Below, in pieces: positions 19,249-61,924 of a stretch of 64,000 nucleotides of DNA. The notes under the pieces are model-generated. The model was given only the letters and a program-made list of their open reading frames with translations, was not told the DNA's origin and made no database searches. A program made the position numbers and the translations under genes. Every line of letters begins with the position of its first letter. The stretch's first letter is position 1. The stretch is from Antedon mediterranea (Eukaryota > Echinodermata > Crinoidea > Comatulida > Antedonidae). The stretch covers positions 19,321,001 to 19,385,000 of the forward strand of contig NC_092680.1 in the NCBI RefSeq assembly GCF_964355755.1, read 5' to 3'.

Positions 19249-22200
19249 TTAGTTCCTGACGGACCACATTTCAGGGTATAACAGCTTTTTCAACATCATA
19301 GCCTCTGCTTCGGATGAGTCGAGTGTCTGATCCCGGAAGAAAACAATTCCCGTCAGCTGTTCAATATCACTGATTGTTGCTCGGTGATCGGCAAGGTTTT
19401 CATCAAAATTCTAAAGAAATGAGAAAAAGCACTTTACGTATTTATTCTATTAAACGCCTCCTCGAAAAAACGCCCTATGGCTCTAATAAACTCCTAAAAT
19501 CCTTCTAAACGTTTATTCGAATAAATAAGCTAATTTTAATTTTCTTTACACAAGAAATGTGGAGAAACAGCAGTTACAAAGAACTGCCATCTTTTATTTG
19601 GTGGGTTTATAGCTTATGAAATCACATCTTCGCCATTGTATCATTTACCTTGCAATTAGGAGGTGATTCGTTTGAGTGAGGCAGGATGAAGGATAGAATA
19701 TCAATATCTTCCGGTCTTTTTCCACATGACGAAAATACTCTGTTACTAACACGACATCGGGTCACGATGTAATAGTAGGCTGTGGGTACAGGAGTTTCTC
19801 CGATCCAATTAGAACTGTAATTTGAATGATAATAATAATAACAATGGTTGTTATAAAATGTCATCATGTGAACCAAAAACAGTATAAGCAGATTGGAAAT
19901 GCATATCCGAGAATAATCTTCCACTAAGTCAGATATGACGCAATTTGTGCGGAAATGTTTACGAATTGACGTCTAGAATCGAGTCTGCCCGAGAATTGAG
20001 ACCTGATTCTAAAATCACAGGACTTTAAAATACTACACATGCGCGCAACGGAAAAAAAAGAAATTAATGCTATATTTACCTTCCAGCAAGTTCATAATAT
20101 GTATCTACTCTTGAATCGTGGTTCGTGTCGAAAATTGGTCCAACTACGACATTGACACCTTTGTGCGTGTCTGCCCATCTTAGTGTTTGGCTAACAAGTC
20201 TGCTCCAATAACCTAAGATAAGAAAAACAGATCTATATGTGGTGAAAAATGCTATTTTCAAACAGACTATAACTTCCCCTTAATACGTACTATAACAAGT
20301 GTTTGGGAAGTGGGGGTAGGAGTAATTATACATAGTAACAGAAGCTTCAGTTCAGATGGGAAATGGAATTGCGGTGATTACACCACGAACTAATCGATTT
20401 ATTCATGTACACATTTAACTATTTGTTTAATGGATACCTTCTAGGATAATCTTAAGCTCTGTCTAGACTATCAAACTAGTTCGTGTGTTGTGCCCAAATA
20501 TGGTAGTGATATGCTTAAATATGGTAGTGATATGACACCATCGTGTCCATATATGGGCATGTCACATTTTGTTTTGTCACATAAAAGTTTGATAGTTTGA
20601 CAGAGCTTTACTGAGCGCGATAGTAAAAAAATAGTATTAGGCCTACCGGTGTAGAAATAAGTGTACATCGGGACAATGTTTGATGAAACAAGGCAATTGA
20701 TCTGGTCAGTCTGGTCGTTTGTAGTTCCTGTTCCACCAGTATTTCCTGTATATTCTACAATAACAATAACATATTGTAAGTTACATTTAATAAGTTTAAA
20801 ATTTAAAATGATAATTGTTTTAACTAGCTTTCCGTCAGAAAGCTAAAAGTAATTGGCCAAATTAGTTTAAACTCCTTCATGTTCTGACGTAATTTGACCT
20901 GATGCTAAGTATATAATTAAGAAAACTTGTACTAATATGCAGATGTTGACAAAGGGCCGAGATATTTAGGAAGGCACCCTTAGTCGTCCATTAGCCGGGG
21001 GGGGGGGGGGGGGGTGTATCAAAGGCTTTGGGGTATCAAAGATCTTTGGTGGGTATCAAAGATCTTTGGGGTATCAAATGTATCTGGGGTGTATCAAAGT
21101 TCTTTGGGGAGGGGGAGTATCAAAGGTCTTGAGGGAGGTACCAAATGCTTTGGGGGTAGCAAAGGCCTTTGGGGGTATCAAAGGCCCTTGGGGGTAGGAC
21201 GTATCAAAGTATTATCTTGAGTGTTTGCACCCAGTATAGTAGGTCATTTTAGTCGCAGTCGTACGGTACATAATAAAAATATAAACTTAGTGATGTGTGA
21301 AAAATAATAACTTACTACTGCAGCTATAGAGAAAACGCTTGCTAAGTCCATTTTGGTATTGTGGTCCAATGTACGCGTTACATTTAACACTATTCTCGGT
21401 TTGAATACGAATATCATCTTTTGTACAAGTATCAATTGGTGATATATAGTTTGTCTGAAATTACAAAGCATATATTGTAACTGAATACAAAACAGTATAT
21501 AAAAAGAAACAAATTTTAAAATGTTCACAACTCAAATTCAAACTAGTTTGGCAACAAATGTGATATTTCCAAAAATGGTAGTGATATGAAATCATCATGT
21601 CCATATATGGGCATATCACTTTTATTTTGTCCTATAACGTTTGATAGTGAAGACGGATCTTAATACAATTGAAAGAAATAAAACATTTTCTTTGGGGCTA
21701 AAATGTGACGTCTTTCCCTAAGCTAACTCTTAACCTAATCACATGAGATGCTGTATTACGGATTTGCCTGTGAAACTGGATGGATAAATATTGTCACGAG
21801 GAGATACAGAAAGAGGATTAAACCACTTTATTTTAGGTAAAAGGAGTTTTATAAGTATTCGTTGGTTTTAAGTGGCAGTATACAAATTATTCCTACACTT
21901 ATACAACAGCTGCTGCTTTTATGGATTTTTTTCGAGAGCTTCTCCAACTTTCGTAAATCCTTGATTTACACCGAAGTGGTTATGATGGTGTCGTGAATAA
22001 TGTTGCTGAACTTTCGACAGCATAGTAAAATTAAGATAAACTTGAGTTTTATGACAACATGTATCGTTGTTACGCCGAACAACATCATCAGTGTAACAAG
22101 TGATTAAAGGTACTTAAACAATTGCCAAACGTTCGGCGATTTCGAAATGTATAAACTTATTTAACACATATTATAATATTATGGAAGCGTAACAGTACAA

Positions 22201-25200
22201 TTGAGGCTATAACAGCTGTATATAAAGCCATGTTGGAAATACTTACATTTTCAGGTAGAGTGTAAGTAAGCATTCGTTGAATTTTGATATAATTGTCGTA
22301 TGCACTAATAAACCGTGTTTGATAGAGCAAACCAAAGTCTACACCTAGTGGGTTAGTTTCGTTTACCAGGATAGGAAAGCCATACGGTGCATTTGTTGCC
22401 CTACTGGAAGATTCTACAAGATAAAATTTGCATAAGTTGCAGGTGTAAGTAGAACCATATAGTTCACTTTTACTTAATGAGATGGAATATCGGAATTAAA
22501 CAAAACAAAAGCATGGGTTGTTACTAGTGAAATATGATTAATAATTACGGTCTATCTATGACGTAAGGTATTGCAAGGGTAAACCAAAGACCCCTACTGA
22601 ATGGGGTTTAGCTTGTTCTCTATAACGGGTTAGTATATACCTATAACTAATTTGGATGATGTTTATAATAATTGTAAAATACAAAATTGTCAGTATGATG
22701 CTACATTAATTTAATACAGTTTTAAAGAACTTACTTTCATTTTGATCTAAATCCAAATCCGAGTCAAAAAACCTACCGTCACGGTTAGAAAATTGCGTAT
22801 TTGCAAGAAAAGACTGAAATTTACAACAAATTAAATTAATATCATTAAATGCTTTTTTAATTTTTTTGTTTAATTCATGTTGAGCGTAATAGAGATGACC
22901 ACTGTCAATTTTCCATAATTTCATGATCAAATTCCGGGAAAGAAATCACATTTGAAACACACGTGTATGATAGACCATAATCTTACATGATACAGCCATC
23001 ATATGTGAGCCACATGAGTTGCTGTACAAAGAATTTGCCTATGATACGGGACATTATTATGTAATAAGAGGATTGATTTGCTTACTATTAAATCTTGTGC
23101 TGTGCACGAGCATCCTGAATTATACGCATTGTAACGTCTGTCTCGTTCAATGTTGTCACGTGGGTATGTAACTGATGTAGTGTTCTCGTTGTTGCTTCTG
23201 TAAGATGGCGTTCCAAATGAACCAGGACGTTGTAATGTAGACCTCATACTACCAGCTGTTCCGTTGTTTGGTTCAGGCGTTACATCAATCAGTTCTATCA
23301 ATTTAAAACGGTATTATGTTTGTTTGTATTTTCTCGAGAGATAAATAAACAGGTAATGAGAAACTTCCTATACTAAAATTTAAGTAATTTATAAACAATG
23401 TCACTACTTCTTGGGGGCCAGTCGGCTATTTTTCATTCACTATACACATTGACAATACATGAAATTAAATAAATATATATAGGTAAATAATCAGAGACAC
23501 AGAATATTTTCTATATTTGTTTTATAGTATAATATACGTTCATGCCATCTCCCCTACCCCTGTAAAAGACATAACCAACCTGCCATGTGTTTTATAGTAT
23601 AATATACGTTCATGCCCTCTCCCCTAGCCCTGTAAAAGACATAACCAACCTGCCATGAGATTGTACAGTTCTACATTTGCCACAGACTCTCTCAATACCA
23701 AACCATTTCTGAAACTCGGTCCAAATCCGACAAATAAACCCTTTTTACAAATAAAAAAAACGTAATTAATTTGTATGATATTTATCATAGACCTAGGTGT
23801 TTTTATAATGGAAAAATAGGAAGATTATGCAATGCAATTAAGAAGTAGGATTGTAGGATCGATTTCTGTATTTAAGTGGTAACATTACAGGTACACGATC
23901 TTAAAATAATACGTATAAAATATGTTAATGCTTTGGCCTATATCTAGTCCTGAAACTAATGTTCTCTAAACAAACGACCAATTATTATTGCCACAAAATA
24001 TGAGACGTATTCGACTGCCAATTTCCTACTTCATGTTTGAACGGTTACAAAAAGATAGTAAAATCACTAGAAATATATATCCATGAGCAATATACGTGTG
24101 AATGTTCAAAGCACATTATGGTTACAATTAACCACATACTTACATGCATCGACATGTTGAATGGATCAAATCCGGTATTAGCACCTCTGCAGTAATCCCG
24201 ATTGTAGGATGATTTACGACTAAAATCAACAAACATTTACAATTCAATTTATTTATTTAATTGTCTCTTATCACAGAAAGACAAGCTAAGTGATGATGAA
24301 AATGTCAAGATTTGGTACTGTACCCTTCCAACTATCACAAACAATTATCTTTAGCTTTTTAGGATGAGCTGATATTAGTTGATTATCCATGTAAGATGTC
24401 ACTTCCTACATTAATCGCTTCATAAATTACTAAGGATAACAGGCTTTTTTTTAAATATAATTTTATGTTCATATCTATAGATACTAGATCTACAATAAAA
24501 ATCTATTTAAAATTCACTTGGTCCGATTTGAACCTTTGAAATCTCACGTACAGGGTGGGCGAGTGTCTTACATAAAAGAATCTTAATGGTAAAAACCATG
24601 AAGTATTCTCAAAGCTACATACCTGCCGGAAAATACGGTTTCATTATCCATGACTACGACAAGAGGTGTAATTCTTTCGTTGCTGCCAAAGTGATAACGT
24701 GATGGAATTGTTAAGTTTCTCATGTAGATGGAAGCAAAATCCTCTTTACACTGAAATAAATGACAAAAACAGTTACAGATTTATTGAAAGTTCAAACCTT
24801 CTGATAATTTTGGTTTTCTTTTATTAATATTATGGAGGAGTATTTATATCTTGTTGACACTGTAGATCGTGAGTAGAGTATGGGGTCTATCCTTTGTATG
24901 TATTGGAGGTTGTCCATGTACCAAGATACATCGAGATAGGGAAAACGACTTATCACTCCAATATACTATTTACATTTAGTTTCTCCGAATTTATTTGAAA
25001 TTAAATGGTCTTTAATCATAATGTGAAAAATCATAGATACTTACAACCAATCGTTCCGCTAAATCTTCTGTCGTATTATACTTAGCACCTATATTGAAAA
25101 AAGTTTAAAATATTTTCTTACAATAAGACGGAGACATCAAAACCCTTTTAGTTATCAATAAATATTTACATTTTTAAAACGGGTATTAAGACGTTTTTCC

Positions 25201-28200
25201 CTTTGTTTTATACTCACGATCGTTTGGCAAAATCTCTGCAAATGATCCAATATAATCTGGTGTTACGTCATAATCCCTCACATCATCAACATACTGAAAT
25301 TAAATTATATATCCGATTTGTATTATTGTTTAAAAATAATTAGAGTAAAACAGTATAAAGCTCTGTCTACACTATCAAACTTTATGTGACAAAAAAATGT
25401 GATGTGCCCATATATGGACATGATAATGTCATATCACTACCATATTTGAACTTATCACTACTATATTTGGGACACACCACACTTTTTTGTCAAACTAGTT
25501 GGAGGTTTGCTTGCACGTAGAAGCATACCTAAACCCCGTTCTCAAAGAGTGTCTGATAATTATTCTTACGTCATCAAGATAAAGCACGTCATCACAAGTG
25601 ACATCGATCATGCCAGTAGTCCCAACAATCATGACGTCAATACAGTCCAGCATTTGTTCATCCATCAGATCTTCCATAACCAAACCAATTGCTTCATCTG
25701 TTTCACGCAGACTCTCATTAAACTGAAATAACATATGAACAAAACGTGGTGAATAATTCATTATTGCTTTGATATCAAATTACAAGTTTGTCCTTTTCGT
25801 TCAATTATTAAAAAGACTTATTATAGTATTGTACTGTTATGTTTACTATACGTTTATTAAATTAGACTTCTTTGTGACATAATTCAGCGTTTTTCATTTA
25901 CAATGAGGAAATGCTTTGTTATTTATCCCTATGTTGTCAAATGTCTCCCTAACATCACGACTTTTGCCCCGAGCTTAACCCGTTCTCACGAGTAGATAAG
26001 ATATGAAATTGCAGTGTCTGCCTAGCTTACTTGTTTTGAGTAGATACCATACTTCCTTGCTGTTTTACCAGGGTCTTCCATAAACATGGTGATAAATCTC
26101 GGTCTAAACAATTAAATAAAAATTGTTCGAAATTTAAAAAACAGAATTAAAAAATAGGCTTGTATGAAGAAAAAATGGCAAAATTAAAACATGGTTCAAT
26201 ATTGATGTGAACTTTGAAGAAATATAGGTGGACAATGTTAACAGTTCATTTCGTTCAATTAAAACCACCTCGATGATTATGAGATCATTAATATCTAAAG
26301 GGTCTTACGACTACAGACAATTACTCTCTGTAAAATACCTATATATAATAAATAAATGTGAATTGAATTGAATTATTATTATATGAATGGAATCAGTTCA
26401 CACAATTTTATTTAGGCCTATTGTATCTCCACATATGGAACGTTCAGTATCACGGACACATTATGTTATACAGTTTCACATGTTTGCCTCCCGTACTTCC
26501 CTTTTGAGCTGTCTACGACTCCCTATGTACCATACGGTATGTCATCATGTGTGAAATTGTATAACATAATTGTCCTATTACACTTGGCAAATTATAGATA
26601 TAGTATCGAGAATCGGTTACGTGGTTTGAAAAAAATTGAGTATGATACAAATCGTATTCATTGGTGGTAGTATCGCATCGCTGACGAAATATGTGTCTGT
26701 TTCAAACGAATCTAATTGGAAATCTTTACACACCTCGTTTTAGATGGCGCTTTAATCCATGCTTTAATCGTATTCATTCTGTCCTCGTATTTGACATCTC
26801 TGCAATAAATAAACATAATAAATCCACTAAGATGACAAAATTATACGCAAACAATAGGTGGCTTATGACATAATACTATTACTATAGTAAAAATAAAATA
26901 CAGGTATATTATTATCTAAAGCTGTGTAAATATTGTCTAAGTACACCTACAAAACGGATAGGTCAACCAATAGACTCGAACCTAATTTTTCATCTATGAT
27001 TCATGGTTAATGGTGATAGATACAAAATAAGCACTTTATAAAGTTGAACTTTATGAAATCGTGATATGATAATGTGTTATGTATAAGTAATGCAAGAGTA
27101 CAAATATTGGCAAAGATTGCAGAGATGTTAGTGCAAAAATAACTGATTTTTTTTATTTATTTATACTGGGTGATTGGGGCATGAATGTAGTTGTTAAAAA
27201 AAGTATATAGAAATGATGTAAAGCAACGTGAGTGTGTGATAGACCTGTTGGGCTTATATATGAATGGATGACGATCTGAGCTTGGACAAATATTGACACA
27301 CATTTTGCTTACTCACTACTGCGACTTAGTGAAGATGTGGACAGATTCAGAAAACTTAAATATGGTATACTGATCTAAAATAAGGTAAACAGTTTGTGTA
27401 GTCGGACGATTTTCTACTGATTTTAAAACGTCAAACAGTAGAAAGTTTACTCGAGAATAATTTAATACGCGGGTATTTCTCGAGTCATGGTAAAAGAAAA
27501 CCGTTATGTAGGCCTAAATGCCTTTAGAAGCAAAATCTTAAAATCCATACTCGTCATATTCTGCATAGTAAGTTGGGTGACGTTCTGTCTTTATACCGTC
27601 TTCGTATCTATCCTCTTTAACATTACTTCCAATCCACGAATGACTGGCACTAATGTAACCTTCTTCGTTTGCAGACTCCCACAACTAAAATATAAATAAA
27701 CAGAATGATAAGGAAATAACGCATTTGGCATGAACAGAAGACCAAACAAACTTAACCGAAACTGTCACTTATGATTGGTCTTTTACTTGCGTTGTGCATA
27801 TACATCCGTGCGTTGCGCATACATCCGTGCGTTTCACATCATCCGTGCGTCGCACACCATCCGTGCGTCGCACATCATCCGTGCGTTGCACACACCATCC
27901 GTGCGTCGCACACATTCCATGCGTCGCACACCATCCGTACGTCGCACACCATCCGTGCGTTGCACACACCATGCGTCCTGTAGGAACCGAAGCTCAGACA
28001 GATTTAACGCAGTATATGTTAAACTCTGTCTACACTATCAAACTACATTGACAAAAGAAGTGTGATGTGCTCAAATACTGCACCGTAGTGATATGCTTAA
28101 ATATGGTAGTTCTATGACATCCATATATGGGCACATCACATTTTTTTGTCACATAAAGTTTGATAGTGTAGACAGGGCTTTACACCAGTAAGAAACTATA

Positions 28201-31200
28201 AATACCGCTTTGGCCTGGTACCAATAAGCATCGTCAAGTTGTGGATCTTCTGGTTTTACAATAGGCTGAAAGGTACGACGATCTTCCTCCGAATATATAT
28301 AATCAGACGTCACTCCATGATAATCAGGATAAAGGCCCTGGTGGAAAATAAAACGTTACTATTTTAACACATCTATTATAATTGTGAAAGTGTTCCAAGG
28401 AGGCCAAGGAGTTTTGTTGAAAAACCTAAAACGGATATAATCGTATTATCGGAAAAATAAAAACAAGATTTAACCTTAAATTTATTTAAAGATTTAGTAT
28501 TTAATATTTTCGCTTCTTGTGCTTTTACCAGAGCCTCTGTTTGAAAACTTTGTCTTGAACATGTATTTTGTACACATTTTTTCCACACATTTAGCCTTAC
28601 ACATGTTTAGATATGAAAAATGTTTAGGTTACAAACCCAACTCAACACATTAGTGACGTGTTGATTGTTAAACATGTGGAGCAATTTAAAGACACGTTTA
28701 GGTTTTAAACGTGTTTAAATTGCCATGTGTGGAGCTCAAGTGTGGAGCTTTTTAGGCCACAGTAAAATCGTATGCACGCAACGCTAAACACGTACCTAAA
28801 AATGTTGACTGCTAAACATGTGGAAAAGTTGAAAACATAATAGTGTCATGGAGGAAAACAACATGTAGCTATAAACACATTTAGGTTTTACACACGATAA
28901 ACATGTAACTGTGTTTAAAAGCTCAACAGTTTTTACAGTGTAAAGGGCAAAAGGGGTATTGTCGAACGGGTCTCACTCGAGAACGTTTTCAAGTATATAC
29001 CTACAGTATTTAGTAAACTCACGTCAGTTAAGCATAATTGATAATCATATTTCAGAATTAGAACACTAATCTTTATTTTACAGTAGGCTTTATTGTCCAT
29101 GGTAACATCCTTAACGTCTGTTTTCATAACAATATGTTTGAATATCAAACACATTAGCAGTAATCAAATAGGCTTACCGTAATTATTGAATATAGGTTAG
29201 GATATGTAAGAGCTGGAAACGACGGCCTCAGCTTAGCCTGCACTCCACATTGAGCTGAGTATAAAAAAGATCGAAAATATAACTAGAATAAATATAATAA
29301 ATTTACGATTCAAGTTCTATTTAATACTGCAAGGCACTTACCAAGCCGTTTGATATTCTTGGCGTAGTTAGTGTTGTTCACATAGTCGTAGCGAAATCCG
29401 TCCAATGCTATTACAAGTAAAGGCTTTCTTGTATAACTACACAAAAAAAATGAACGTAAAAATGAAATACGTAAAAATAAAGAACTATTGACAATCTCAA
29501 TATGTTATGATTATCTGATAATATAAAAACTATAAACTAAAAAAGTTGAGGAAAGTCATAATCATCACTGTTCATAATCTACTATACAGTATTGTTTCAG
29601 AGCGGTTTCTGGTGAGTTCAGTAGGCCTACTGAATATGGTCATTGTCATCTGGATGGCAGAAGATACCACCATTAAGGCCTATAGCTGTCTGAAGAAAAA
29701 AGGCCACGAAATCAAATTAGACAATTAGCTTTTTCAACGTGTAGACTCCTCACTACTATTATACGAAACTTTTTAGTGAAACGAAAATGGGCTCTCGGCC
29801 AACCCTGATCAGGGAGAAATACGACGGCCAATATTATTACTATATTGAGGGGACACGTTGTTGGGGACACGTTGTTGGGTCCTAAATATGTCCCCTTAAC
29901 AAGCGTTCTAACTGTATATAATTACAGCTTTTGTTCTACTTACTCTGTTGGTTGGCATTTAAACGAACATGAACTGCCGTATGTTTTTGCAAAATTTCCT
30001 TGGTAACCAGAGCCTGCAAAAAATAGTTAAAAATTATCAATCATAATATCGGGGAAATGCAGCAAAATATAAAAATAGTTGGATAATTATTTATTTTCTT
30101 TCAATTTTATTGTCTACGCCGTCGTTACTAATTGTTATGAATAATTTTCCAGAGTTTACGAAAACGACGAAAAGTTGAAAGACTATTTCTTATTTCACAT
30201 GAAACGAATGAAATTTGGTTTTAAAAAGTAAGGAAATACTACCTCTCTTTCCTAGACCAACTCCAAGACCGATAGCGAATACGAAAATAAGGATTACAAC
30301 AATGACCTGAAAAATTAGAAACAATATTGAACAAATGTTAATATTAATTCAATTTCACTATAGTAATAGTATTTCCCAGATATACTGTATATGGTTCTGG
30401 GATCTCCTCATGTTTATCATTTCAATTAATGAATAATGACCACCGGGCCATTTAGATTAATATATATCTAATCGAACCACGGAAGCCCAGTGGTCTAATG
30501 GTTCAACAATCTTGCATATCAAGCAGAAGGTCCGAGTTCGAATCTCGGTTGGGGCAGCATTTCCTCATCTTTATCGTTTCAAATTAATTAACATTAATCG
30601 CCATGGAGTAAATATATCACCGATCGGTTTAGAATTTCTTGAAATGAATGAAAAAAGTAAAGGAGCATGCAAAGAAGAAAGTAAAACTAATCATAAAGTT
30701 TTCAGATGATTTTATGTATTTAGTTATGTATTAGGCCTATTATTTAAGAAAACCCATTACTAGTCATAGTCGCAAGAGACTACTACTAAGTTGCACATGC
30801 ACATAGGCCTATTTAAGCTCAGCCAATGAGTTGAATTAGTTGAAACAATAGTACATGCATTTGAGATTTTTAAATAATATTGTAATAAATAACATTCTTA
30901 TTTTCATCTTATATTACCATGCTTGCTTAGCAAAACTTTTGGTCTATAATGAATAATATTAGTTGGAAGAAAATAGAGATTAATTTGTGCTATTGATCAT
31001 GCGCATCATAAAGTATGTTTACTTTACTTACACAAATCTGTGAATGAGAAGACAAACACGTGACGAGTTGGTAATATAGTGACGTCAGAATTAACATCAT
31101 GAAATCATAGAAGAGTTTAATAAAAACGAAATTAAAATAATAGTAATTTAAAAATGAAAGATTTATATGTTAATAGTTAACAGAGAATGATGGAAATACG

Positions 31201-34200
31201 TCGCTGAATGGAATATAAAATAACACAGTGCATTAACTAATTTCAAAATTATTTTTTATATCATAATAAAATATTTTATTGAAGTGGTGTAACAGAATTA
31301 CTATTTACTCTCCTTTTGTTTTTGTTTAATTGTTTTTAAAGTATTTTGCTTCTTTTTTGTTTTTGTTTATTATAACCAGTAGAGAGACAAAGTCAAACGT
31401 AGCACAGAGTACGAACCAAAAATCTATCCTAGTAGGCTACAGTAGTTGATATACAGTAGGCCTACACTTATTCTGAAATATGTCAGGCCTAACTACACTT
31501 ACCACTATAGCACGTTTTCCTGTGCAGCATTCACCCACTTCACAACCACCTCCAGACGAGGAGGACTGCAAGGCAAAAGAAACAAACAAACATGGTTTTT
31601 TTTTATTTCATATAGTTCGGTTACATCATATGATTATGTGACAGCATAATTTATACAAGAGAACCCTTTAAGCATTTCAAAACGCCGCCATGACCAACAT
31701 ATACCAATATGGTGTCTTCTTTACGTAATAACAGGAATATCCGGTAATGCTTGGTTCCCACTCTAAAGCGTGGTTCCCACTAGCGACGCAACGCAAGGAC
31801 CAATCTTTAGGACGCAACACAAGGACGTAACGCAACGTAAGTGAATTGACCAATCACAAACGATAGATTATTCGAACTGTCGCTTGTCATTGGTTAACAC
31901 GCTTGCGTTTCGTGTACGTCATTGCGTTACATTCTAGTGGGAACCAAGCTTATGTAAATGATTAAGCCATGCATTACATTGCGTACACAATGAAAAGTCT
32001 AGGCCTATCGAAATTGAATTTAGATTCATCATGTCAGTTCGTATTGACACAGTGGGTTCTCGTACCAATACGTGCATCTTATACGATTCAGCTTGTTTAA
32101 ATATTTGAGTCACTCGTTTTACCTTTAGCTTACAATACCATTGTTCTCGTTCACATTATAAAACTGGAATCTTCATATTGCGTGTTAACGCAACCTATTT
32201 TGTAGTTGGTTTTGTTGAAGTTTCTATTGTTAATTTCCTGGTGAAATTGTTTTCTCTTTTTGTATATAAATGTTTTGTATACAATTTGTATATGGATGTA
32301 GGTCTACTATCCGAAATAAAATAAGTGAATATTTAATTCAATTTCCAAAAAATGGTTGATATTTCCAGCTATTATAGAAATTATCTCATATAGACTATGA
32401 TTTATATTTGTTTTTTTAGATTAGACACGTGACCAATGTATTTATGACTTAGTTCATGTACGGTACTGTTATATTCTAATTTAATAAACACTTAAGTCAT
32501 CAATGAGCCACTTAAGTCATGGATTGATAATTCCATCATAAAAATATAATAAATATTCATTTATATTAAAATCTTAAATTCTGCAAAGAAATACCTTATA
32601 CCTTAAAAATAATACAACATTGCAACGGTAGCACGGTGAAATAATATTATTTTAAAGGTATAGCACAGAGAAAACATAAATCAAGAAGTTAACATTTTGT
32701 GAAAACAAAACAATAACACTGTAATAGCCCTAATCATACCTTACGTGAGTACCTCGTAAATAACAGTGCCTACAAGGTGCTGCGTAAGATTTCTATTTGA
32801 CCCACATAAAATAACCTAAGTTTATTTACAAATTAAAAAATATACTTTTAGTACACTGAACCGTGTTGTGTTCTGTTTTATTGATAACTGTGTAGCTACT
32901 CGATTACAAGAGGTTGACTTTACTTTGTAATGTAGGGGAATAACCTGCGGCTTGCAGCTTACAGTGACACTTTACTCCCTCATTGGTCCCTTCGAGGCTC
33001 ATTTGCCTGTCCACACGACACGAGGCACTGGGGTGACCCCTCTTCCGCGAGATGCACTAGAGTACACACGAATCAGATGTGGAAATTGGCCTTTAATTAA
33101 GCTCATCCGATGAGACTTGAACCCGTGTCGTTTGTAAAGTATGACTGATGTGCGTTACCCCTACCTTAAACCACTCGACCACTCAAATGTATCGAGGATT
33201 ACGTTGCCGAAATTGCATTTATTTCGGAAATAGTTTTGATGGCACAAAGGCTACTTGCGCATCCCCAATCAAAATGGCACCGTGATGATGAAATATTTGA
33301 TATTGGCATCCATAGAAATGGCAATAACCCAAAATATCTTTATATCATGCAATGTAGTGATTCAAACGATCTACTGCGATGGTGTGTGCATACTATAAAT
33401 CCATAAAAGAAAATAGGCCCTAGTGGAAGCAAATTGCCAAGAGGATATGATGGTAATAATAGGCATACGTGCCTGGAATATGACATAACAAAAAACAAAA
33501 TTGTCCTGTAAACAAGGAATTGTTGTTGTCCCTTGGAAGATATTTTTAATTGTCAGCATGTGTAATACACATAGGAATTCGTTATTTGGATGATTTACGA
33601 TCAAATTTATGAACATTATTAATAAAAAAAACAAAACAGTGATATCTGTTTTCCTTATTAAATCCATATGTTGATCTCGAAAGGTCAATTGTCACCTTAC
33701 ATAGGTCTACTATGCATTACATTCAACATTGATGTCACTGATTGAAATATTCACTTACGTCTTTTCCATAATATTTTTCACTCCCCTTGGTGGAATAGGC
33801 AGGCGCAGCATCAATGGCGTCCAGATCAATTCCCTGTTGATATAAACACAATTACATTTTTGTAAATATTTTGATAAAATAGATAGCCAGTGCAGCAGAA
33901 ACATAAAACGACATTAGTAACCACCAGGTGCGTAACGGCGAAAAATAAAATAAGGAGATTAAAGAAAGAATGAGCGTAAAATATAAATGAATACAGTTGA
34001 ACCTGGGCACCTTTTAGGCCTACATGGGTACACTTTACCATGAAACGAAAGATGCACTAATAAGTTTGTTTTAAAGAATGTTTTTTAAAATGAAGATTAA
34101 TTAAATCAGATTTGAATAGGTTATTTTGTAGTTTCAACAAAGTTAATCACTTCCGTAGGAAATAAAAAACGAAATAAACAATGTTTTTACTTATAACATA

Positions 34201-37200
34201 TCATTATACATGGTGAATTCAACCAAAATCCCATTTGACCATTTTTTGCTTTAAATTACAGCTTTTTCAGGTAAATAAATCTTGTTTAAATCCAATTTTT
34301 GGTCAAAGTGGATAACTGTTATGTGAAAATAAAATGGCATATTCAATACCAACAATTTAAAAAAAATATGTTTCAGCGGGACAATACATCTTTAACATTA
34401 CAGCCTATCAATATTCAGGAAACAAGGGGACAATCTTAATATAGTTACGGGACCTATAAATATTAAAATAAATGGCAACTTTAGAAACAATTTTAAGAAT
34501 AAAAATTTACGTTGAGGAATTACTTTTCTGTTTATTTATGTTTATGATGCTTTTATGATGTCTTTAACAGCAATAATTAAAACGGCGATTGATCGGTGTT
34601 GTTGACAGCGACGATTATGATCCAATCATGGACCTATAATTTACATAGGTCCATGATACAATGTACAATAGTATTTTAAACTATTTATTATTCGATGTTA
34701 TAAATAAACCAAGCTTATTCCAATCACCATCCGATTATCAGGTTATATTATACAATGTGGTATACTTTGATATTAATTTGTATATAGATCTGCATAGGTA
34801 TGACTCATACAATACAATAGACAACGCCTCTAAACTAGAAACCACTATTGTGCAGCATACACATATAATTGTTTTATTACTACACATTATAGATACAGCG
34901 TATGGTAATTTGTACAGTATTAAGGCCCTGTTCAGACCCATGGCGTTAGACCGTTTTAGCGTACGACGCTAAAAGAATGTGTGTCTGAACAGTTGGGGAT
35001 TAGCGTACAACGCGTTGTACAACGGTTGTAGCGTTGTAGTGGAAAACGGTTGATAGTACCGTTTTAGCGTACGACGCTACTGTAAGTCAACGTTGTATCC
35101 AATCAGAACGTTTCCTGTTATGACGCGAAACAAGGTTTGACCTAGGCTGACATCTTGTATCGTCAATGTGTGAGATGGATTTCAATAACAAAAAGGCCAG
35201 AATAAATAAGGCCTAACTACACTACAAATATAACTGTTACAAAGGCTACAAACTATTATCAACTGATTACCATTATATTTTCTAACAAATGACATAAATA
35301 CATGCACCTTGTATTTAAACATAGGGACTACGATCCCATCCGCTTTTAGGCCTAGCTAGGCCTAGAGCCATTCACGCATTTCATTCAAGCTAAAAACTAG
35401 CCTGGGACATCAAGTCACTCATTCATACAAGGCAGACTAGACTGGACAAGTTTAATGCTGAAAACCCCCTAACTCCTAAAAAAATCAGTAAACAAACAAG
35501 GGGAGCTGTTTCCCTTTTATTAGCAAGTTAAGGGTTATTTTCAACCGACTGGACCAAAGAATATATAATCTTTGACTGGACTGGATAGACTAATCACAAT
35601 CATTTTTTTCTTCATCATTACGAGGCCTGCTTTATTTTCGTAACACAAGAGCCTGGGGAAAATGTTTTTTACTACAAAATAAAAACAATAGAAACAGAAA
35701 TTTGGCTTTACTATATTTTTCTTAAATAAATGCTGAGGTATGTTTTATTTACGGCAAATTTTGTCATAATTGTAGGGCTGAGATCTAGGCCTGTATACAG
35801 TGGAAATAATGATGAAAACACGTGGGTAAGAGCACATGAATATGCAACTAGAAACAACTTGGATGACGTACTTCCGTTGTAACGATAATCGTACGCTATG
35901 GGTCTGAACACCTCGTTTTTTTCTCTGCGGTTTGTAACGTGACCTTGATAGTAACGTTGTACGCTAAAACGGTCTAACGCCATGGGTCTGAACAGGGCCT
36001 TAAAATGTATTGATATCATAATTGAAAATCCAGCAGAGTCTCATAAATATACGAATCTAATACGTGCAAAGTGTATGCTAAAGGTGTTCAACGATTGTAT
36101 TCCTTAAGGAAGTTGAAACAATATAATAATAGGCCGTGATTGTTTTTTATCAAAGTGTTATTCAATCTGTATTAAGCTTTTGTTGTGTTACTTAGGTAAA
36201 TAGTCTAACAAAGAAAAATTTGAGTAAGTTAAAACAGAATAGGAATGCAAACACAATTACTGGTATCGAGATTATAAGATATCACACAAATGTGTAATAA
36301 TAAAATTATATCTAAATTAAATAATATTTTAGTTAATGAATCTCATATTCTCAACAATAAGTTAGTAGTTACCAGATCTGAAAGATTAACAGCAATTCCA
36401 GTTAAAACAAATAGACATAAATTGTCATTCTTACCTAGCGCTATTAGACTACACAACAATGAGTTCCAAAGATAGGTCATTAGGTCTTTTTGTATTTTAT
36501 ATTGCGTGATCAGTTGTTAGTTCCATGTTGATCACAAATGAAAAAAAGTATGTGTGTATTGTTTTGTTTGTGTTTTTCTGTCAAGAAAACAATTATCATT
36601 GTACTATATGAATGAATAAATCGTATCTGATAATGACAAAAATTTGCTTGACTTTACACGATATAAATCAATACTGGTTACTCATGGGCGTGATTCAGTG
36701 GAGGAGGAGGAGTGGGTTACTCATGGGCGTGATTCAGTGGAGGAGGAGGAGTGGTATATATTCCCTCCCTCTCATCTAACTAATATTATAATTGTACTGG
36801 TGATGACTAGAAACAATTTTGAGGAATTTAGAATTCTTCATTTACATGTGAAACTGCACGGTTGCCAATAACATAACTATCAAACTAGTTTGATGTGCCC
36901 AAATATGGTGGTGATGTGCCCAAATATGGTGATGATATGCCCAAATATAGTAGTGAAATGACATCATCATGCCCATATATGGGCACATCGCATTTGTTGT
37001 CACATCAAGTTTGGTAGTGTAGACAGAGCTTTAGACCACTTTAAAATAATATTATAATGATCTATCAGAATTTAATCTAGGGCTCTTTTTGGTCATGAAA
37101 TGTTCTTAAGCGTGGTTCCCACTAGCGACGCAACGCAAGGACGTAACGCAACGCAAGCGAATTGACCAATCACAAGCGATGGCTTATTCGCTTGTGATTG

Positions 37201-38646
37201 CTAACTGTCTTTAACTTCGCTTGTCATTGGTTAAAACGCTTGCGTTGCGTTTACGTCATTGCGTTACGTTCTAGTGGAAACCAAGCTTTACATTGCATAC
37301 TCGTAAAAAACTATTGTTTGCATTGGTTTTCACTTCAATAAGTTGAGTGTATTCATTGTTCTGTACTTATAAAAACCCAGAGAGAAAAATTCCACTTTAG
37401 GTTAACAATAAGAATGAGTCAACAACGTAATAAAAGCGCACATGTACAAATAATAAAAGGTTCAAAACAACCAATCGCCAGCCCATGAGAATGAACAGAG
37501 ATGCTAGTATGAAGGAATACGAATTCCATTCTATCATTCAATGAAGATTTTCTTTCTTTTTTATCTATTCTTGATTTTGTTTTTAAATGATGGTATACGC
37601 ATGGAGTTAAAAACTCCATGGTATACGTATGGCACTTGATGCCTTAAAAAAAAACAGATTCTATCGGTTTTACAGATCTTGTAATGCAAGTTTAGTTTTA
37701 ATCAGTATGGATTTTGCGATACAAAACGATAATAAGGAAAGGATTGGCTATTCCATATTGGCAATCAGCTAACACTATTCGCCAGATTTAATATTATCTA
37801 CACAACAATAACAATAATTTGAAAGAAACTTTTTTTTTTATGAAAGAAAAATGTTGTTTTGACAGTTTTATTTTTTTTTAATACCCCTGTACATGTATTA
37901 TATATATTTATTTTTTTATCGTTCTTGGTTTTAATGTTAAATTTATGTGACAAACAAATGTGATGTGCCCATGACGTCATATTACTACCATATTTGGACA
38001 TATCACTACCATATTTTGGCATATCACTACCATATTTGAGCACATCACACCTTTTTTTGTCAAATTAGTTTGATAGTGTAGACAGAGCGTTTAGACTTAT
38101 CTGTAGTTTTCGTAACCTTGTACAGTATATTATGTATAATTATGCTGTACAAAATAGGCTACTCGCGTGTATGTGTGACATGCCCTAATAATAAAAATGT
38201 ACCATATATTATAATATTTATGTAGGACTAATACGGTTAAACACCGACGAGTAATAAGATTTACAACTAAACATTTGTAAAAAATAGAATCTTCTTATCT
38301 ATACAATTTAAAACACAAAATCAAGGCTTGGATACCTGTGTGCTGTCTTAATATTATTAATATGAACCGATTTCATATGAACATGCTTATGGATAATGAA
38401 CTATCAAATGACCTTTTAAGCCGACCGGACCGGGTGGCGCTCTACGAACCGTTCGTTTACACCAATTAGATCACTCGACGAACGTGAAAACGTTCCAATT
38501 TGGCAAAACAAAATATAAAGTAAAATTATAACTAATTTATAATTTTAAATTTACCAACTTACCCCTGACGGAACGAGAGAATAGTTTGAAGTTTTATAAG
38601 CAACTGGTGGTAGTTGATCAGCCATCTTGTCTTTATTGTGATTCAT
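19249..38646 (-). CDS. ENPP/autotaxin-like type II membrane protein with degenerate catalytic site
   Basis: Inferred exons in coding order: 38646-38563, 33833-33759, 31565-31503, 30306-30243, 30013-29944, 29436-29342, 29254-29178, 28337-28206, 27684-27551, 26799-26734, 26103-26031, 25722-25570, 25293-25218, 25088-25045, 24750-24623, 24219-24144, 23740-23650, 23294-23086, 22813-22735, 22413-22247, 21454-21316, 20754-20647, 20212-20080, 19814-19649, 19410-19249. Total 2664 nt: 887 residues plus stop, close to ENPP1-3 length. Domains: cytoplasmic tail; one membrane helix (about 72-92, VIVVILIFVFAIGLGVGLG); a short Cys-containing stalk where ENPP1-3 have somatomedin B domains; phosphodiesterase fold (LDGFR, PNLYSIITGLYP, PNNGTAGS); nuclease-like C-terminal domain (GPIFD, PVPTAYYYIVTRC). 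Asp131 and nucleophile Thr167 remain. Ligand positions in EPDxxxH (now DPGKTAR), DHGM (TTGM) and DHGFD (NTGFD) are lost, so hydrolysis is unlikely. Function is unknown; extracellular binding is an inference. Confidence 0.92.
20452..20608 (+). repeat. MITE family A copy (ENPP intron 22)
   Basis: Inverted ends TTAAGCTCTGTCTAGACTATCAAAC / GTTTGATAGTTTGACAGAGCTTTA surround two AAATATGGTAGTGATATG units. Confidence 0.85.
20990..21220 (+). repeat. G-rich minisatellite with G20 run (ENPP intron 21)
   Basis: A run of about 20 G residues leads into roughly ten drifting copies of GGGGTATCAAAGATCTTTG (about 20-30 bp). The encoded frame is a repeat product. G-runs lie on the strand opposite the ENPP transcript, so the pre-mRNA would carry C-runs. 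Confidence 0.85.
21538..21662 (+). repeat. MITE family A copy, left-truncated (ENPP intron 20)
   Basis: Lacks the outer left end, starting at CAAACTAGTTTGGCAACAAATGTGATAT. The right end is diverged (TTTGATAGTGAAGACGGATCTTAA). Confidence 0.75.
23521..23660. repeat. 70-bp tandem duplication across an ENPP splice donor
   Basis: Two near-identical 70-bp copies (23521-23590, 23591-23660) beginning TTTATAGTATAATATACG. The inner copy contains the end and donor of ENPP exon 17 (ATGGCAG|GTTGGT on the - strand). The outer copy repeats the donor 70 nt further into the intron. Confidence 0.85.
25357..25501 (-). repeat. MITE family A copy (ENPP intron 12)
   Basis: Left end AAAGCTCTGTCTACACTATCAAAC is intact. 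The right end stops at TCAAACTAGTT, losing the outer ~20 bp. It lies about 70 bp from the donor of exon 12. Confidence 0.8.
26460..26570. repeat. Imperfect inverted repeat (ENPP intron 10)
   Basis: ATTATGTTATACAGTTTCACATG (26460-26482) pairs with CATGTGTGAAATTGTATAACATAAT (26546-26570) around a 63-bp loop, a likely MITE remnant or RNA hairpin in the intron. Confidence 0.65.
27790..27975. repeat. Minisatellite CATCCGTGCGTCGCACA (ENPP intron 8)
   Basis: About ten copies of a 16-20 bp unit. GTGCG/CGCAC within each unit is self-complementary. It accounts for the overlapping His/Arg/Cys-rich open frames on both strands. Confidence 0.85.
28019..28182 (+). repeat. MITE family A copy (ENPP intron 8)
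   Basis: Both ends are present (AAACTCTGTCTACACTATCAAAC and GTTTGATAGTGTAGACAGGGCTTTA). It is adjacent to the minisatellite. Confidence 0.85.
28560..28940. repeat. ACATGT/TTTAGG-rich repetitive stretch (ENPP intron 7)
   Basis: Recurring AAACATGTGGA, ACACGTTTAGG, TAAACACGT and CACATTTAGG words in both orientations, ending CAGTTTTTACAGTGTAAA. It looks like a decayed inverted-repeat element; borders are uncertain. Confidence 0.45.
29845..29905. repeat. Short duplication GGGGACACGTTGTTG (ENPP intron 5)
   Basis: Two adjacent copies followed by TATGTCCCCTTAAC, which is partly complementary. Beyond this, intron 5 (29437-29943) holds nothing recognised. Confidence 0.5.
30395..30625 (+). mobile_element. 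tRNA-derived SINE with duplicated tail (ENPP intron 3)
   Basis: GTGGTCTAATGGTT (A box) and GAGTTCGAATCTCGG (B box and T-arm) at 30488-30550 resemble a tRNA, but the acceptor ends do not pair well. TCCTCATNTTTATCNTTTCAAATTAAT-like sequence occurs before and after the tRNA part, suggesting a dimeric or tandem insertion. Confidence 0.6.
31749..31951. repeat. MITE family C copy (ENPP intron 2)
   Basis: Ends GCGTGGTTCCCACTAGCGACGCAACGC / GCGTTACATTCTAGTGGGAACCAAGC are inverted copies. The middle is CAATCACAA(A/G)CGAT...CGCTTGTCATTGGTT, itself an inverted pair. An extra partial left end sits at 31749-31767. Confidence 0.8.
32980..33190 (-). mobile_element. tRNA(Leu/Ser)-derived SINE (ENPP intron 2)
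   Basis: On the - strand TGGTCGAGTGGTTTAAGG (A box) and GGGTTCAAGTCTC (B box) are followed by a body running down to about 32980. A B-box-like GGTTCAAATC also occurs near 24530 without an A box and is not called. Confidence 0.65.
34080..34395 (+). repeat. MITE family B copy (ENPP intron 1)
   Basis: Shares AAATCAGATTTGAATAGG...TTTTGTAGTTT and the GCGGGACAATACATC right end with the family; the reference left end (GTATTGTCCC) is best seen at 41695. Confidence 0.6.
34625..34657. repeat. Perfect 13-bp stem hairpin
   Basis: ATCATGGACCTAT, 7-nt spacer, ATAGGTCCATGAT. No terminator context applies in this eukaryotic intron. It may be the end of a foldback element. Confidence 0.8.
34920..36003. mobile_element. 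1.08-kb TTAA-flanked inverted-repeat element (ENPP intron 1)
   Basis: A 41-bp perfect terminal inverted repeat starts GGCCCTGTTCAGACCCATGG at 34924 and is mirrored at 35999. Both ends abut TTAA (34920-34923, 36000-36003), the target-site signature of piggyBac-type transposons. Sub-terminal TTAGCGTAC/GTACGCTA motifs and TGTCTGAACA recur inside. No transposase frame, so non-autonomous. Confidence 0.85.
36280..36640 (+). mobile_element. Non-LTR retrotransposon 3' fragment (ENPP intron 1)
   Basis: A frame ending RHKLSFLPSAIRLHNNEFQR-stop resembles the extreme C-terminus of LINE reverse transcriptases (R...SFLPxxI.LWN). It is followed by a 3' UTR-like tail with AATAAA near 36615. 5'-truncated and dead. 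Confidence 0.55.
36660..36755. repeat. Two-copy 37-bp tandem repeat
   Basis: GGTTACTCATGGGCGTGATTCAGTGGAGGAGGAGGAGTG occurs twice in direct succession. Confidence 0.85.
36874..37033 (+). repeat. MITE family A copy, left-truncated (ENPP intron 1)
   Basis: Starts at ACTATCAAACTAGTTTGATGTGCCC, has three AAATATGGTGGTGATATGCCC units and an intact right end. Confidence 0.8.
37107..37289. repeat. MITE family C copy (ENPP intron 1)
   Basis: AAGCGTGGTTCCCACTAGCG...TTCTAGTGGAAACCAAGCTTT inverted ends with internal GCAACGCAAG / CTTGCGTTGCG. Better preserved than the copy at 31749. Confidence 0.85.
37591..37628. repeat. Short hairpin with direct repeats
   Basis: ATGGAGTT-AAA-AACTCCAT is bracketed by direct GGTATACG repeats. 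Confidence 0.75.
37941..38093 (-). repeat. MITE family A copy (ENPP intron 1)
   Basis: Begins within the family (TTTATGTGACAAACAAATGTGATG), carries several CATATCACTACCATATTT units and ends TTTGATAGTGTAGACAGAGCG. Confidence 0.8.
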
Positions 38647-43985: not shown

Positions 43986-44019
43986 ACAATGTCTGATTTA
44001 ATCAATCAATGTAGTGGGT

Positions 44020-45165
44020 CCAGACAAAGAAGGGGGTGTGAGACCATCCACAGACAAAGAAGGGGTTGTAAGACCATCCACATACAAATAAGAGGGTATA
44101 AGACCATCCACATACAAATAAGAGGGTATAAGACCATCCACAGACAAAGAAGGGGGTATAAGACCATCCACAGACAAAGAAGGGGTGTAAGACTATCCAC
44201 AGACAAAGAAGGAGTGTAAGACCATCCACACACAAAGAAAGGGGTGTAAGACCATCCACATACAAAAATGGGGTGTAATACCATCAACGAACAATTCAAA
44301 GAAAGGGATGTAATACCATCAACAGACAAAGAAGGGGTATAAGACCGTCCACAGAAAAAGAAAGGGGTGTAACACCATCCACAGACAAAGAAGGGGTGTA
44401 GGACCGTCCACAGACAAAGAAGGGGGTGCAAGACAATCCACTGGCAAAGAAAGGGGTATAGGACCACTTACAGACAAAGAAGGGGTATAAGACCATCCAC
44501 AGACAAAAAAGGAGGTGTAGGAACGTTAACGTCCACAGACAAAGAAGGGGATGTAAGACCACCCACAGACAACGAAGGGGTGTAAGACCATCCACATACA
44601 AAGAAGGGATTATAAGACCACCAACAGACAAAGAAGTGGGTGTAGGACCATCCACAGACAAAGAAGGGGGTGTAGGACCATCCACAGACAAAGAAGTGGG
44701 TGTAGGACCATCCACAGACAAAGAAGGGGGTGTAGGACCATCCACAGACAAAGAAGGGGGTGTAGGACCATCCACAGACAAAGAAGTGGGTGTAGGACCA
44801 TCCACAGACAAAGAAGGGGGTGTAGGACCATCCACAGACAAAAAAGTTGGTGTAGGACCATCCACAGACAAAGAAGGGGGTGTAAGACCATCTACAGACA
44901 AAGAAAGGGGCGGTTTAATACCATCAACAGACAAAGAAGGGGTATAAGACCATCCACAGAAGGGGGTATAAGACCGTCCACAGACAAAGAAATGGGTGTA
45001 AGACCATCCACAGACAAAGAAGGGTGCATAAGACCATCCACAGACAAAGAAGGGGGTGTAGGACAATCCCCAGAAAAAGAAGGGGGTGTACGGTGGGGGG
45101 GGGGGGGTGTAGGACCATCCACATACAAAGAAGGGGTGTAAGACCATCAACAGACACAGAAATAT
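44020..45165. repeat. 30-bp minisatellite inside the foldback element
   Basis: About 35-38 copies of AGACCATCCACAGACAAAGAAGGGGGTGTA. The block 44636-44890 is exactly 30-bp periodic and alternates AAGTGGG with AAGGGGG. Since 30 is a multiple of three, stop-free frames run through several frames, producing spurious 80-280 residue frames. Confidence 0.95.
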
Positions 45166-45224
45166 AAAAAGTTCTTTGTATGGTCATTAATAATTAATGG
45201 CAGGTTTCCCGTGGGAATTCCAGA

Positions 45225-47100: not shown

Positions 47101-47103
47101 AGT

Positions 47104-49045
47104 ATGGCCTGCATTCCACCACCAAATTTTAGCTGGGTGGTAGCAAGCCGATTAGCTGCCCATGCCTTACCAGAATCTAAGCAACATCTCCAGTACCTGT
47201 TCAACATCGGTATCTATCATTTAGTTACTTTAATGAGCGAAGGCATTCCTCCGATGGAGACCGTACCAGAATTGAAATGGACAAGGATACCTATAGAAGA
47301 TTTTACACCACCGTCTATTTCTCAGATTGAAACATTTGTGGACATTGTTGATTCTGCAGTTGCAGTAGGTAAAGTGAGTACTAAAGTCATGATTTACATC
47401 ACAGAGGCAGAGAATGGCTAAGCTGGCCACCATATTTTTTAGACGAAAGTGTCTGAGAGATTCCTATCTAGGAAAACAACTTTATGTAATTAACATTGTA
47501 TAAAACTTACACCAAGTAAAAAGAGGAAAATCATGATTCATTGTTTCAATCTTTATTGGATCATCATCACTGATTGGAATCATCAGTACATCTGTTGGTT
47601 TTTAAAGTATATATGTATATTATTTCAATTTGTTATAGGCAGTATCAGTACATTGTTTACGTGGAAGAGGTAGAACTGGCACCATGCTGGCTAGCTATCT
47701 GGTCAAGTCAAAAGGTATCTCACCAGAAGAAGCTATTAGAGAAGTGAGGACAATGAGACCAGGCTCAATAGAAACATCAAGTCAGGAGGATGTCATCAAG
47801 GAATACTCAGTATTTCTTAAGGCTCATTCTAGGTATTATGTTTGTCATAATGATATGAACTTTTACACAAATCAGACCGATCCATTATGTGGTTTGGTCA
47901 TCACCTGGACCCAGAATCCCCCAATACTGTTCAAGGAATCTTGCAGTAGAGGAAAGGGAAGCAAGTCTCTATGTCCATATATGTGCACAATGAATAAACT
48001 TTGTATTCAATGTGTGTGTGGTAAATAAATAAAATACTGGTTCCTAGGTTGTCAGAAATCGAACACCCTCTCAATTGTTTGACTGTGAAAAATTAACCAA
48101 AGCTTTCTTTTTATCCTGATATAGGTATTTAGATTCAAGGGAGAAGCCCCCTCCTTACTTCTCATGGGTTGTGCCAAATCTTCTAGCAGCACATGGCTTC
48201 CCAACAGAACCTTGCCATTTTGAATACCTCAGTTCAATTGGTATACGACACATGGTATCGGTAGCAACAGAGAACCGGCCTGATATAGACCAGTGTGTAG
48301 GTATGAAGTGGACATCTATTGGAGTAGATGATTTCAAAGCACCAAACCTAAACCAAGTTACACAATTTATACAACTTGTTGAAGATACTCAAGAAAAAAA
48401 TGAGGTTTGTCCAACACCAAAGTTTATATTTCAAACTCAAAACTCCAAATATAATTTTTAAAATTTTTATATATGATATAGGCCTACTTAGTAATATGAT
48501 TTTTTGTATATAACATTTTAAATATTATTTATCATCTCGTCTAAGGAAATCAAATTATGTCAATAAATAAATTATTAGAATTTTTTTTATTTAGGATTTT
48601 AACACATTCCATATAATATCAAAATAATCAAATAAGAAAATGCAACATGTATATGTAATCTTACAATGTTTCTTTATCACTGATAATCTCATAATAGTGT
48701 ATTCGATTCTTATGAATCACACTGTTGATTTTTGTATTCTTTTTGTTTGTGCATCTTGGACAGCTCCCATAATTGTGCAGCTGATGTCGGTGATATTTTG
48801 ATAAAAATCCATGCAATTGCTAAATAAAATGTGAACTTTCTTTACCATTTTAATAGGCCTTGTCGGTGCATTGTCAACGTGGTTGCGGAAGAACAGGCTC
48901 TTTACTAGCCTGTTATTTTATCAAAGCGTTTGACATGAACGCAGAAGAGGCGGTTGAAAAGATCCGAGAACTGCGATATGGGTCAATTGAAACTACTGAA
49001 CAACAAACAATAGTTCATGAATATTTTGATAGCTTGCAAGTTTAA
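47104..49045 (+). CDS. Double-domain DUSP23-like dual-specificity phosphatase
   Basis: Small cysteine phosphatase of the DUSP23 (VHZ) type, here with two catalytic domains in one chain. Exons 47104-47373, 47639-47832, 48125-48404, 48857-49045; phases join cleanly to 310 residues plus stop. Domain 1: PPNFSWVVASRLAAHALP at the N-terminus, general-acid Asp66 in IEDF, P-loop HCLRGRGRT (Cys96, Arg102), PGSIET. Domain 2 (from about residue 163): PPYFSWVVPNLLAAHGFP, Asp224 in VDDF, HCQRGCGRT (Cys254, Arg260), YGSIET. Both active sites look intact. The two domains share intron positions, so the protein arose by tandem duplication and read-through splicing. It probably acts in cytosol or nucleus (no signal peptide or membrane segment); the substrate is unknown. 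A truncated single-domain form is possible by reading through intron 2. Confidence 0.93.
47833..48028 (+). other. Possible alternative 3' end of DUSP gene (intron 2 read-through)
   Basis: The domain 1 frame stays open past the exon 2 donor for 65 more residues and stops at 48028 (TAA), overlapping GTAAATAAATAAAATA, which contains AATAAA. Cleavage there would give a one-domain phosphatase. Confidence 0.35.
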
Positions 49046-56760: not shown

Positions 56761-56806
56761 AATATTGTGGAAAAATATTGTTTAAAGATATACATTTCTT
56801 TTCACA

Positions 56807-61870: not shown

Positions 61871-61924
61871 ATAGCGTGGACATAGTTCATTGATGATTAT
61901 GATTTTATACTATCTCTTTTCACA

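Follow-up and report, generated by a model that had tools for sequence, protein, structure and literature searches.

An intact ENPP1-3-type gene of Antedon mediterranea predicted to encode a pseudo-phosphodiesterase without a zinc site

In the window, by which we mean the whole 64-kb stretch of DNA analysed here, we found an intact gene for an ENPP1-3-type protein that appears to be catalytically dead, and judging from its sequence it is probable that selection maintains this gene for a non-enzymatic job. The gene lies on the minus strand, runs from 38646 to 19249, and has 25 exons and 24 introns, all 24 of which are bordered by GT and AG (Table 1). The re-derived exons, once spliced, form a single uninterrupted frame of 887 codons plus a stop codon, which confirms the claim of an earlier sequence-only reading that 25 exons join in frame to an 887-residue protein; the ends of the gene also matched. 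Most exon boundaries of the conserved region were recovered by an independent ENPP3-guided spliced alignment built without the exon list of that reading. Many introns carry a short dispersed repeat (CTCTGTCTACACTATCAAACT...CCATATATGGGCAC; near 20.5k, 21.6k, 25.45k, 28.1k, 37.0k, and 38.0k), possibly a miniature transposon.

Table 1. Exons of the ENPP-type gene in the order of translation, with positions given for the window
Exon	Position	Strand	Content and basis
1	38563-38646	-	Start codon at 38646; cytoplasmic N-terminus; gene model only, without homology
2	33759-33833	-	Cytoplasmic tail; gene model
3	31503-31565	-	Juxtamembrane CC-TGKR; transmembrane helix begins here (hydropathy maximum at residues 72-93)
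4	30243-30306	-	Transmembrane helix; gene model and hydropathy
5	29944-30013	-	Short linker with Cys111 and Cys115, where somatomedin-B domains would stand
6	29342-29436	-	LDGFR with Asp131, the retained Zn2 ligand
7	29178-29254	-	PALTYPN with Thr167, the retained nucleophile position
8	28206-28337	-	PDE domain; ENPP1 Asn259 replaced by Asp188
9	27551-27684	-	PDE domain; nucleotide-pocket loop WIGSN, lengthened
10	26734-26799	-	PDE domain; gene model
11	26031-26103	-	EPDxxxH replaced by DPGKTAR; D299G, H303R; Zn1 ligands lost
12	25570-25722	-	DHGM replaced by TTGM; D346T, H347T; Zn2 ligands lost
13	25218-25293	-	PDE domain; gene model
14	25045-25088	-	PDE domain; gene model
15	24623-24750	-	PDE domain; gene model
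16	24144-24219	-	HGxD replaced by NTGFD; H460T; third Zn1 ligand lost
17	23650-23740	-	End of PDE core; gene model
18	23086-23294	-	PEPNNGT motif and linker cysteines
19	22735-22813	-	Linker; gene model
20	22247-22413	-	Nuclease-like domain; gene model and alignment
21	21316-21454	-	Nuclease-like domain; gene model and alignment
22	20647-20754	-	Nuclease-like domain; gene model and alignment
23	20080-20212	-	Nuclease-like domain; EF-hand-like Ca loop DTNHDSRVD, residues 763-771
24	19649-19814	-	Nuclease-like domain; gene model and alignment
25	19249-19410	-	Nuclease-like domain and stop codon; gene model

The Pfam profile Phosphodiest (PF01663) matched residues 125-463 of the protein over its full length (E = 3.9e-68), and ENPP3 from the PDB matched residues 112-874, covering the PDE and the nuclease-like domain, with an E value of 1.7e-93. 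The solved structures of ENPP1 and ENPP2 likewise matched across both domains of the ectodomain. The nuclease-like domain is fused C-terminally to the PDE domain and keeps 36 of 48 invariant positions. Identity to ENPP1 and ENPP3 is about 30%. A strong transmembrane helix was found by hydropathy at residues 72-93, and from its sequence the product is a type II membrane protein, similar to ENPP1 and ENPP3 and not of the secreted type. It has 11 N-glycosylation sequons, of which 10 are in the ectodomain. A Pfam profile search of the protein gave no match for somatomedin-B domains (PF01033).

A canonical gene of the ENPP1-3 type, full length and with both domains, is present elsewhere in the genome (contig C4, 20.887-20.902 Mb), and its LDGFR, TFPNH threonine, EPDxxGH, DHGM, and HGYDN motifs are intact. 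In the tree, the window protein and this paralog both fall into the ENPP1/ENPP2/ENPP3 clade, apart from the single-domain ENPPs, with a support of 100/99; the branch of the window protein is long (2.28 vs 0.96 for the paralog), and its placement within the clade is uncertain. Sixteen of 20 ectodomain introns are common to the two genes in position and phase, which indicates that both descend from a single intron-rich ancestor. A recent duplication of the C4 gene can be rejected, as the two proteins are only about 31% identical. Somatomedin-B domains were not found in a search around the C4 gene either, and their absence from both genes is possibly a lineage trait. By descent and shared gene structure, as far as sequence can tell, the window gene belongs to ENPP1-3, but it is not a canonical member of the vertebrate type.

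ENPP1 binds one zinc ion through Asp358/His362/His517 and a second through Asp200/Asp405/His406, with Thr238 serving as the nucleophile (PMC6200793). Alignment placed G299 of the window protein at D358, R303 at H362, T460 at H517, D131 at D200, T346 at D405, T347 at H406, and T167 at T238. Five of these seven metal and nucleophile residues are replaced (D299G, H303R, D346T, H347T, H460T), which leaves no Zn1 ligand and, of the three Zn2 ligands, only Asp131; Thr167 is the other retained residue. Every one of these residues is exactly as the sequence-only reading had listed it. The three altered motifs contain no histidine, and EPDxxxH, DHG, and HGxDN are absent from all six frames of the whole window. 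A shifted ligand or a mutually exclusive exon is therefore unlikely, and alternative exons restoring the ligands were rejected. It is very improbable that the protein is still a hydrolase working through another metal site or mechanism, since the retained Thr167 and Asp131 would have to act with no Zn1 ligand left and with no histidine in the three motifs replacing those lost.

Beyond the active site, the protein looks maintained. At 171 positions the C4 paralog, ENPP1, ENPP2, and ENPP3 are identical, and the window protein keeps 111 of these residues; the calcium-binding loop (DTNHDSRVD vs DYNYDGHFD in ENPP3) is likewise preserved, as are 12 of 13 invariant cysteines. The ligand loss alongside 65% retention of the other family-invariant residues is not due to chance. 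A pseudoenzyme has lost essential catalytic residues and retained those that determine the fold, and both features were found here. These data support the view that the window gene codes for a predicted pseudo-phosphodiesterase lacking the zinc site.

Selection was assessed by a relative-rate test by domain within this single genome, in which unique departures from the vertebrate ENPPs were counted for the window protein and the C4 paralog. This comparison of paralogs took the place of dN/dS because synonymous sites of the two genes are too diverged. The C4 model was obtained from the ENPP3-guided alignment, and the outcome did not change when ENPP1 and ENPP2 served as references. In the PDE domain the window protein had 82-90 unique changes and the paralog only 22-32 (P 7e-7 to 6e-11), whereas in the nuclease-like domain the counts were 27 vs 26, 37 vs 29, and 34 vs 30, which is not significant. 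The relative rates of the two domains differed with P = 0.0003-0.012. The identities to vertebrate ENPP1-3 follow the same pattern, with 30-32% for the window protein and 46-48% for the paralog in the PDE domain, but 30-32% and 31-33%, respectively, in the nuclease-like domain. An acceleration of the PDE domain only, together with similar rates in the nuclease-like domain, indicates that the loss of constraint is confined to the catalytic domain; as judged from this comparison, the nuclease-like domain is under the same degree of constraint as in a gene whose active site is canonical. Clustering of the PDE changes at the active site was considered and was not significant, with 18 of 33 invariant positions kept near the active site and 55 of 87 elsewhere (P = 0.41). 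The acceleration is domain-wide, and a general relaxation of the PDE domain is therefore also possible.

The loss of five ligands and the long branch would also be expected of a decaying pseudogene whose stop codon is still to come, but we regard this as extremely doubtful. The frame and the splice sites are intact over 25 exons, about 9.5 stop codons would be expected at 200 neutral replacements, with a chance of 7e-5 of finding none, and the nuclease-like domain evolves at the rate of the C4 paralog. The acceleration of the PDE domain only, the 12 cysteines, and the calcium loop point instead to a protein that would be selected for a non-enzymatic function. The earlier proposal of a pseudo-phosphodiesterase that is non-enzymatic yet maintained thus gained support from the replaced ligands, from a frame that stays open over 25 exons, from the retained cysteines and calcium loop, and from the restriction of the acceleration to the PDE domain.

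The nucleotide pocket is altered as well. ENPP1 residues Asn259, Lys277, Pro305, and Asp308 correspond to Asp188, Leu210, Ile238, and Asn241, and Phe239 to Tyr168, whereas Trp304 and Tyr322 are kept as Trp237 and Tyr263. As Asp131, Thr167, and two pocket aromatics remain, residual ligand binding is possible, and the protein might be a decoy or receptor for nucleotide or phosphate whose pocket holds a nucleotide-like ligand without cutting it. The base-stacking aromatics Tyr168 and Tyr263, the kept Trp237, the conservative exchange of Asp308 to Asn241, and the new Arg303 at the metal site are in agreement with such a role, but both phosphate-holding zinc ions are predicted to be lost and the equivalents of Lys277, Pro305, and Asn259 are replaced, so that we consider it unlikely.

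In autotaxin, a deletion of the pocket loop opens the lipid pocket. Alignment showed that this deletion is absent from the window protein, in which the loop is present and longer than in ENPP1 and ENPP3. An autotaxin-like lipid binder is therefore disfavoured, and the lipid binding that had been suggested earlier appears less likely than binding of a protein. The former assignment to the "ENPP/autotaxin family" holds for descent from ENPP1-3, as judged from profile, structures, and tree, but not for the narrow autotaxin label, given the transmembrane anchor and the lack of both the somatomedin-B domains and the pocket-opening deletion.

A non-catalytic ENPP could also serve as a regulatory subunit, associating with an active ENPP present in the same cell and governing where that enzyme is located or how active it is. 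A canonical type II paralog of the ENPP1-3 type does exist in the genome, and the somatomedin-B domains of ENPP1 have been implicated in homodimerization (PMC12465099). However, these vertebrate ENPP1 dimerisation domains are absent from the window protein and were not found near the C4 gene, and the chances of this explanation seem rather small.

Our favoured interpretation is that the ectodomain would fold without zinc and be displayed at the cell surface, where it would work by binding rather than cutting; a metal-free surface ectodomain of this kind is likely on the sequence evidence. The metal site has lost two negative charges and acquired Arg303, and we suggest, as a guess, that Arg303 might form a salt bridge with Asp131 across the empty site. 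The binding partner would most probably be a protein, contacted through the normally constrained nuclease-like domain, though the partner is again a guess. More tentatively, the gene may belong to an ancient ENPP lineage dedicated to a non-catalytic role, with selection acting on the nuclease-like domain and the surface of the fold instead of on phosphodiester hydrolysis, and with an Arg303-Asp131 pair stabilising the metal-free site.

Five further ENPP copies of the single-domain type were found in the genome, two on C7 near 27.69 Mb, one on C7 near 23.99 Mb, and two on C11 near 3.96 Mb. According to the alignment, all keep 6/6 metal ligands, except that the region of the first aspartate was not recovered in one of the C11 copies. 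In the copy at 23.987-23.990 Mb of C7 (L066), whose six metal ligands are kept, FPTMVPSK replaces PTKTFPNH; by its sequence the catalytic threonine may be missing or shifted, and this copy is possibly a second non-canonical ENPP. The two copies at 3.961-3.969 Mb of C11 (L067 and L068) align with serine in place of threonine at the nucleophile position (PTMSLPN and VTLSSAS).

Elsewhere in the window, three related genes for cytochrome P450 (PF00067) cluster at 51127-52937 (-), 56786-58442 (+), and 61886-63561 (+), one of them opposite in orientation, and a small gene for a dual-specificity phosphatase is present in two neighbouring copies at 47101-48461 (+), the first with the catalytic motif HCxRGRGRTG. 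The repeat of a minisatellite at 44002-45183 lacks stop codons in several frames of either strand, with an open stretch of 295 codons on the minus strand, and is likely to give rise to false gene calls. A weak, sub-cut-off Pfam match to ABC2_membrane_3 marks 3780-4076 and 8428-8775 (+) as possible fragments of a gene for an ABC transporter.

Catalysis-independent effects have been described for two enzymes of the family. Mice with the inactive ENPP1 variant T238A retain normal trabecular bone (PMC12465099), and inactive autotaxin rescues adhesion phenotypes, with catalysis-independent effects on cell adhesion and positioning (PMC4349085). Such roles are difficult to separate from catalysis, as the proteins concerned are themselves enzymes. 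The window protein would be a dedicated version of them and, if the ancient non-catalytic lineage is real, a natural separation-of-function version of ENPP1/autotaxin. A full-length natural ENPP that lacks the metal site and keeps the rest would reveal the surfaces that carry the non-catalytic role, so that a little-understood function of the family could become testable. Open-access literature searches found no ENPP-family pseudoenzyme, which is weak evidence given their incomplete coverage.

Compared with known systems, the window protein shares with ENPP2 (autotaxin) the ectodomain composed of PDE and nuclease-like domains, but differs in having the pocket loop and a transmembrane anchor and in lacking the metal ligands. 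With ENPP1 and ENPP3 it shares the type II topology predicted from sequence, both domains, the disulfide cysteines, the calcium loop, the PNNGT glycosylation site, and the long nucleotide-pocket loop; unlike them, it has Asp131 as its sole zinc ligand, replaced pocket residues, and no somatomedin-B domains, and is identical at only about 30% of positions. With the C4 gene it has 16/20 ectodomain introns in common, an identical domain order, and somatomedin-B undetected in both, whereas in C4 the metal ligands are complete, the threonine nucleophile is present, and the PDE domain is closer to the vertebrate proteins (46-48% vs 30-32%).
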